NCBI RefSeq assembly: GCF_002949795.1
Contig: NZ_CP026692.1
Coordinates: forward strand, 803,501-867,500
Length of the DNA stretch: 64,000 nucleotides
Reading direction: 5' to 3'
From: Nostoc sp. 'Lobaria pulmonaria (5183) cyanobiont'
Lineage (GTDB): Bacteria > Cyanobacteriota > Cyanobacteriia > Cyanobacteriales > Nostocaceae
A program made the position numbers and the translations under genes. Under the pieces are notes generated by a model, which was not told the origin of the DNA, made no database searches, and saw nothing but the letters and a program-made list of their open reading frames with translations. Shown piece by piece: positions 21,424-23,347 of the stretch (position 1 is its first letter; the number at the start of each line of letters is the position of its first letter).

Positions 21424-21936
21424 GTGGACTTATCTCGTATTCCTGCCCAACCAAAACCGGGTCTAATCAACGTTCTGATTGAAATTGCTGGCGGAAGTAA
21501 AAATAAATACGAATACGACAAGGAACTAGAAGCTTTTGCTCTAGACCGAGTACTTTATTCCTCGGTGCAATATCCTTATGACTACGGCTTTGTACCCAAT
21601 ACTTTGGCTGATGATGGCGATCCCCTCGATGGTATGGTCATAATTGATGAGCCGACCTTTCCCGGCTGCGTTATTGCTGCGCGACCAATTGGCTTCTTGG
21701 AGATGATTGACGGTGGCGATCGCGATGAAAAAATCCTTTGTGTTCCTGACAAAGATCCGCGCTACACTCAGGTAAAATCCCTGAAAGACCTAGCGCCACA
21801 CCGCTTAGATGAAATTGCTGAATTTTTCCGTAGTTATAAAAATTTGGAAAAAAAGGTGACTGAAATTCTCGGTTGGCAAGATGTGGACAAGGTTGCAGCA
21901 TTAGTAGAAAAATCCGTCAAAGCTTATAGAGGATAA
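21424..21936 (+). CDS. ppa: Inorganic pyrophosphatase (family I)
   Basis: 170 aa from a GTG preceded by AGAGGAG at good spacing. It hydrolyses PPi to phosphate in the cytoplasm, pulling biosynthetic reactions forward. Active-site landmarks: KNKYEYDKE (Lys/Glu), [10 protein letters not shown], the D-x-D-P-x-D signature in [10 protein letters not shown], and DKDPRY. Length is normal for bacterial family I enzymes. Upstream genes are separated by a terminator, so it has its own promoter. Confidence 0.96.
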
Positions 21937-21940
21937 TAGA

Positions 21941-21989
21941 GGAGTTAGGAGTTAGGAGTTAAGAGTTATGAATTTTTATTCCTAACTCC
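21941..21989. repeat. GGAGTTA heptamer repeats forming a hairpin after ppa
   Basis: Four tandem heptamers (GGAGTTA x3, AGAGTTA) at 21941-21968 are followed by TCCTAACTCC at 21980-21989, complementary to the first units. This STRR-type repeat can fold into a hairpin behind the ppa stop codon and may serve as its terminator. Confidence 0.75.
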
Positions 21990-22049: not shown

Positions 22050-22433
22050 ATGCAGCGTACTCTCCTTTTGGCAAAAATTCATAACTGCACCCTCACAGGG
22101 GCAAATATCAACTACGTGGGTAGTATCAGCATTGATGAAATCCTTTTGGAAAAAGCTGGTATCTTACCTTATGAGCAGGTGCAAGTAGTTAATAATGCCA
22201 ATGGTCAGCGCTTTATTACCTATGCGATCCCCGCTCCAGCTCATTCAGGAATAATTGAGCTAAATGGGGGTGCGGCACGTCTAGGCATTATTGGCGATCG
22301 CTTGATTATAATGACTTACGGGCAGCTCACTCCAGAAGAGTTAAAAAGTTACTCTCCTACGGTAGTCATTGTGGACGAAAAAAACAGGCTGTTGGAAGTG
22401 CGGCGCTACGATGACCTGCTCAGTAAGGTCTAA
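22050..22433 (+). CDS. panD: Aspartate 1-decarboxylase
   Basis: 127 aa. A pyruvoyl enzyme that makes beta-alanine for pantothenate and coenzyme A. The self-cleavage site Gly24-Ser25 is visible in [11 protein letters not shown], and Ser25 becomes the pyruvoyl group. [15 protein letters not shown] and [16 protein letters not shown] (with the conserved Gly-Asp) complete the fold. Length matches the family. The downstream MBL-fold gene starts 11 bp after the stop codon, so the two are probably co-transcribed. Confidence 0.96.
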
Positions 22434-22444
22434 TTTCAAGGAAA

Positions 22445-23347
22445 ATGTCAAATTTTGAGTTGTCGGATTCCCAGAGTTACATAACAGAAAAGTCATCTAC
22501 CCTGCCCAGTAGCCCAGCAGGTGAATTTATCGTGCAATTCTGGGGTGTCAGAGGTTTGATTCCCACTCCCAGTAAAAACACCAATCGTTATGGTGGTAAT
22601 ACTGCTTGTGTAGAAATGCATGTAGCTGGGAAACGCTTGATTTTTGATGGCGGTACTGGCTTACGTATACTGGGTAAAACTTGGCAAGAACTGCAACAGC
22701 CACTAGAAGCCCATTTATTTTTTACCAACTGCCAATCAAATCGTATTCAAGGGTTTCCCTTTTTTGCTCCCGCATTTATTGGGGAAAATTGCTTCCATAT
22801 TTACGGGACAGCTGCCTCAAATGGAGCCTCAATCAAACAATGTCTGTACGATCAGATGCTCCAGCCACACTTTCCTTACCCTTTACAGGTAATGCAGTCA
22901 GGATTGCAGTTTTACAATCTGACTTCAGAAAGTGACGTGAAGTTAGATGATGTCACCATTACAACTGCATTAATTAATCAAACTCAGCGGTCAGTTGGCT
23001 ACCGAGTTACTTGGCAAGAATATAGTGTTGCTTACATCACAGATTTGCACCAGAATGCCGATCAAGTGGAGCGAGAGCGGATTTTAGAGTTCATTCAAGG
23101 CGTTGACTTGCTGATTGCCAATGCCACTTACACTCCGCCTACGTCTCACAACCATGATTCTGCTGATTTACTCTGGCAAGCTGCGATGAATGCTGCTCTG
23201 AGTGCTGGCGTTCAACGGCTAGCTATTTCTCATCATCACCCAGATGACCATGATGATTTTCTTGACCAGGTTCAAGTCGATATTAAATCTGCTTTTCCTC
23301 ACGCCATACTAGCCCATGAAGGTCTAGTATTAGCTGTTGGTAAGTGA
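22445..23347 (+). CDS. Metallo-beta-lactamase-fold protein with degenerate metal-binding motif
   Basis: 300 aa. The fold is clear from FWGVRGLIPTP, NRYGGNTACVEM, LIFDGGTGLRILG, AYITDLHQN, LLIANATYTP and ISHHHPDDHDD. The hallmark His-x-His-x-Asp-His, expected just before IQGFPFF, is replaced by Asn-Cys-Gln-Ser-Asn-Arg (in FFTNCQSNRIQGFPFF). All four ligand positions of the first metal motif are therefore changed, while the downstream Asp and His-rich segment remain. It is predicted to be a catalytically inactive or altered member. It follows panD by 11 bp; a regulatory or binding role is inference. Confidence 0.85.
   Translation: MSNFELSDSQSYITEKSSTLPSSPAGEFIVQFWGVRGLIPTPSKNTNRYGGNTACVEMHVAGKRLIFDGGTGLRILGKTWQELQQPLEAHLFFTNCQSNRIQGFPFFAPAFIGENCFHIYGTAASNGASIKQCLYDQMLQPHFPYPLQVMQSGLQFYNLTSESDVKLDDVTITTALINQTQRSVGYRVTWQEYSVAYITDLHQNADQVERERILEFIQGVDLLIANATYTPPTSHNHDSADLLWQAAMNAALSAGVQRLAISHHHPDDHDDFLDQVQVDIKSAFPHAILAHEGLVLAVGK

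Follow-up and report, generated by a model that had tools for sequence, protein, structure and literature searches.

Loss of the metal site from a metallo-beta-lactamase (MBL) fold has a described precedent in CPSF100, in which the HXHXDH residues are lost and no metal is bound, and which can form a heterodimer with CPSF73 (PMC4819959); INTS9 pairs with INTS11 likewise (PMC4819959). RNase J2 was weighed as a precedent from bacteria and set aside as not clean, since metal-dependent activity persists in the S. epidermidis protein (PMC7864078). By profile, the closest solved structures to the cyanobacterial protein described here are those of RNase Z/ElaC (B. subtilis 1y44 and E. coli 2cbn), which are also good fold matches, but the protein lacks five of the seven RNase Z metal ligands and the HST element. 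No published description of this cyanobacterial pseudo-MBL family was found in the open-licence literature. As a rule, a pseudoenzyme is encountered only in its final state. In this case, intact, partly eroded and fully altered forms of a single protein stand at one shared chromosomal position in different families of cyanobacteria, so that comparing living proteins can test in which order the active site was lost, as well as the acquisition of a new conserved site.

The gene lies in a 64,000-nucleotide stretch of the Nostoc sp. 'Lobaria pulmonaria (5183) cyanobiont' genome (hereafter the window), where ppa (inorganic pyrophosphatase; 21424..21936), panD (aspartate decarboxylase; 22050..22433) and the degenerate MBL gene (22445..23347) follow one another on the + strand. 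In agreement with the sequence-only reading, which had claimed an intact frame 11 bp downstream of panD, the frame is open along all 300 aa of the encoded protein (P0001), and the panD stop at 22433 leaves a gap of exactly 11 bp. Within the ppa-(panD)-MBL order, ppa is the more widely conserved neighbour. The ppa-panD spacer contains a tandem repeat of the heptamer AGGAGTT (4.1 copies, 21940-21968).

The window protein scores 32.4 bits against the Pfam Lactamase_B_2 model (cut-off 27), which places it in the MBL-fold superfamily, and only 36.4 bits against the NCBIfam RNase Z model TIGR02651 (cut-off 292.95). A PDB sequence search with the window protein alone returned no match. An AlphaFold2 model based on 37 Nostocales sequences reached a pTM of 0.80 and a mean pLDDT of 74, with residues 230-241 unreliable, as are residues 1-23, which have very low confidence and fall within an N-terminal tail of ~27 aa (22445..22525, + strand). 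Such a tail, of 25-35 residues, is found in most ppa-linked copies, intact or not. The best Foldseek matches of this model in the PDB include the PhnP-family diphosphatase 6b9v, YhfI 6kns, the B. anthracis ELAC homologue and RNase Z, with E values down to 7e-11; identity to 6b9v and YhfI 6kns is 13-19%. Both 6b9v and YhfI 6kns are taken to have the metal-site chemistry typical of active hydrolases. The window protein is of the RNase Z/PhnP-like MBL fold.

The ligand positions were fixed by aligning the single further relative in the same genome, the intact paralogue L002, to B. subtilis RNase Z. L002 carries the motif HSHWDH, is 47% identical to the window protein over the whole domain and, unlike the window protein, has all ligands and no N-terminal tail; neither ppa nor panD lies in the stretch fetched around it. 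Where intact relatives read T-H-x-H-W-D-H, the window protein reads T94-N95-C96-Q97-S98-N99-R100-I-Q-G-F-P-F-F, so that the HxHxDH motif typical of catalytic members is replaced by NCQSNR (22727..22744, + strand; H to N, H to Q, D to N and H to R). The sequence-only reading had described all four of these changes correctly and had overlooked a fifth: the His within 'LNHPGEAIGYRV', which aligns with RNase Z His140, is Gln179 in the window protein (22979..22981, + strand). It was also right that the downstream Asp and the His-rich segment are retained. D200, the bridging Asp (23042..23044, + strand), is kept here and in 87 of 88 distinct orthologues, and H263, the last ligand His, opens the segment H263-D271 'HHHPDDHDD' (23231..23257, + strand) and is present in 85/94 orthologues. 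Measured against RNase Z His140, Asp211 and His269, the protein therefore has Q179 for the first and retains the other two as D200 and H263. In total, five of seven metal ligands are gone (H95, H97, D99, H100 and H179, now N, Q, N, R and Q); D68 is also kept. The RNase Z catalytic 'GHST' element is missing as well, in a region that varies within Nostocales. With five ligands gone, MBL chemistry makes two-metal hydrolysis by the window protein very unlikely.

The altered motif is present in all 94 Nostocales orthologues examined, as NSQSNR or NCQSNR, with N95 and Q97 in 94/94, N99 in 93/94 and R100 in 91/94. Since the eight tabulated positions are unchanged in 71/71 intact relatives (36 ppa-linked and 35 others), this uniform change is more than chance. 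The former active-site loop (residues 92-111) has 12 invariant positions out of 20, compared with 52 of 280 elsewhere (Fisher p 1e-4; 88 distinct sequences), and is one of the protein's most conserved regions. H265, D267, D268 and D270 are invariant in Nostocales, the first three of them being unlike the intact paralogue; H263 is replaced by Q, Y or D in 9/94 orthologues, and position 179 is Q in 71, K in 15, H in 1 and D in 1 of 88 distinct orthologues. By the Nei-Gojobori method, dN/dS of the degenerate gene is ~0.14 in comparisons with close Nostoc species and 0.15 with more distant ones. The corresponding values are 0.04-0.07 (ppa) and 0.10-0.11 (panD); of five genome pairs, four give the intact paralogue a lower value than the degenerate gene. 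The catalytic residues have therefore been lost in a gene under purifying selection. These results uphold the proposal of a maintained pseudoenzyme, which had been staked on conservation of the changed residues across Nostocales: the canonical motif is absent from all close orthologues, and the nonsynonymous ratio is low.

Within Nostoc, 52 of 53 genomes carry the gene, and the only one without it, G551, is 85% complete. One of the 52 copies is broken: at G510:C1:4060967-4061867 the gene is in two pieces that overlap, and an in-frame TGA interrupts one of them, which reflects either a recent break or a sequencing error. The gene is also missing from several genomes of family f1, and is dispensable.

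Across cyanobacteria, the conserved position after ppa, or often after ppa-panD, is occupied by an intact copy in families f2, f9, f21, f39, f42, f48 and f57, and degenerate copies stand at this position in f1, f4, f5, f12, f15, f35, f45, f51 and f56. In the degenerate copies from beyond Nostocales, H100 and H179 are lost in 30/30, and H95, H97, D99, D200 and H263 are changed in some only; loss of H100 together with H179 is common to every degenerate group. Because degenerate status was called from the motif, the loss of H100 is partly definitional, but this does not apply to the accompanying loss of H179, which occurs in none of the 71 intact relatives. The motif states include HTHWDR, HCHWDS, NCHWDS and, in f12, HSHWER, DSQSDR and QTEIDR. 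Read lineage by lineage, HTHWDR, xCHWDS, HSHWER and DSQSDR are intermediates towards NSQSNR. Erosion is graded: the H100 and H179 losses are shared by all degenerate groups, and in Nostocales the remainder of the motif has gone too. The HTHWDR copies form a second degenerate group, found in other cyanobacterial orders and linked to ppa without panD, with H100 and H179 replaced (L174, L177, L179, L183, L184, L187, L190, L194, L196 and L199).

In trees built with the ligand columns left out, the Nostocales pseudo-copies form one clade, both in a quick tree of 129 proteins and in a 76-row set and a careful 51-row tree. In the quick tree, a branch with support 87 has every degenerate copy on the same side, a split that the careful tree does not contain. 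When the Nostocales and f12 copies were constrained to group together, the log-likelihood improved by 12.4 on the value reached by the free quick search, and AU tests rejected none of the groupings tried. On the rpoB tree, intact and degenerate states must have changed into one another three times or more, which requires that erosion ran in parallel, that transfer took place, or that old duplicates were lost differentially.

The best explanation of these observations, with a probability of about 0.6, is that the window protein is a maintained pseudoenzyme acting as a non-catalytic binding or regulatory subunit. Its ancestor would have been a normal cyanobacterial MBL hydrolase, zinc-dependent, of the RNase Z/PhnP-like type and encoded behind ppa(-panD), in which the metal site and the GHS element were lost while the frame stayed under purifying selection and the replaced pocket itself became conserved. 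Since the replacement residues are conserved, the N/Q/N/R pocket, whose geometry is deduced from the alignment, and the surface would serve binding. As to mechanism, the favoured candidate, tentatively and at somewhat below even odds, is that the window protein is a non-catalytic subunit or regulator of L002, as CPSF100 is for CPSF73. Like CPSF100 and INTS9, it combines an MBL fold that has lost its HxHxDH residues with maintenance alongside an intact paralogue. This precedent, together with a second family member in almost every genome that has a degenerate copy (intact in those read), makes a mixed dimer with the paralogue the leading proposal. The exception to this co-occurrence is G555, an incomplete assembly (93% complete, 240 contigs) that shows a degenerate copy only. 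In the single-copy genomes checked, the copy is always an intact one. The parallel is partial: CPSF100 has a beta-CASP domain, of which none was seen in the window protein, and the heterodimers of CPSF100 and INTS9 are reported ones with roles in RNA processing, whereas the partner suggested here is putative. Co-occurrence with the intact paralogue also fits simple redundancy, a spare copy being free to lose catalysis. The dispensability of the gene and its dN/dS, mostly above that of L002, likewise speak against the best explanation.

The sequence-only reading had proposed PanD as the binding or regulatory partner. In such a scheme, the window protein would bind PanD or the pyrophosphatase and regulate its maturation or activity, by analogy with PanZ/PanM in enterobacteria, PanZ being a precedent for a PanD-binding activator (PMC4410942). 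The adjacency on which the idea rests is real: the ppa-panD-MBL order and the 11-bp gap are conserved in nearly all Nostocales, with panD within ~25 bp in 91/94 loci. However, panD is an optional member of this arrangement in other families: in f15, f56, f35, f2 and others the MBL gene follows ppa with no intervening panD, for intact and degenerate copies alike. Moreover, ppa-panD persists without the degenerate gene in seven f1 genomes, and also in the four f18 genomes examined, which have no match to the window protein; thus, PanD does not need it in general. In G211 (f1), the degenerate copy is encoded on a contig without ppa or panD, ppa-panD being on another, and PanD of other organisms can activate itself (PMC4410942). 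An obligate PanD partner is therefore rejected as a general explanation, the proposal is unsupported as it was put forward, and even its broader form, with PanD or Ppa as partner, is distinctly unlikely.

Other readings concern the altered pocket. The N95/Q97/N99/R100 residues might form a metal-free sensor for an anionic ligand (nucleotide or diphosphate) that reports via a partner; they are conserved and polar with one Arg, and the nearest folds (6b9v, RNase Z) act on phosphodiesters or diphosphates, but the former metal-site position 179 varies between Q and K, and such a sensor seems possible but doubtful. It is unlikely, too, that the Nostocales N-x-Q-x-N-R and HHHPDD elements together make up a newly built site, be it for sensing a ligand without metal or for holding metal at a new place, controlling pyrophosphate/CoA-precursor metabolism or the intact paralogue. 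That H263-H264-H265-P-D267-D268-x-D270-D271 with D68/D200 could form a relocated and still catalytic metal site would accord with the retention of D68 and D200 and with the Nostocales-specific H265, D267 and D268; the replacement of H263 in some orthologues, the loss of the GHS element and the variability and low model confidence of its region make this quite improbable. To our knowledge, no MBL uses a metal site like HHHPDDxDD with D68/D200, which also counts against it. Simple decay, with the gene losing function and open only through recent ancestry, could draw on the f1 absences, a C-terminal scrap in G236 and the broken G510 copy; the conserved replacement residues and the low dN/dS, together with open frames in nearly all carriers, rule it out as a credible account.

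Heterocyst-forming cyanobacteria keep a zinc-hydrolase-like protein beside vitamin-B5 and pyrophosphatase genes despite its lost zinc site. Genes of this kind match MBL models, and hydrolase activity should not be assigned from such a match. Several loci depart from the common arrangement. Two f56 copies (L191, L195) have no ppa in the fetched stretch. In G236 (f1), a pseudo-MBL scrap corresponding to residues 260-284 (68% identity) lies directly after panD at positions 2164-2235 of L285, the gene being otherwise absent, and looks like a deletion scar. Finally, panD-like matches in genus g65 (G075, G241, G247, G262 and G275) each contain a single in-frame TAA, probably because the alignment runs past a shorter C-terminus.
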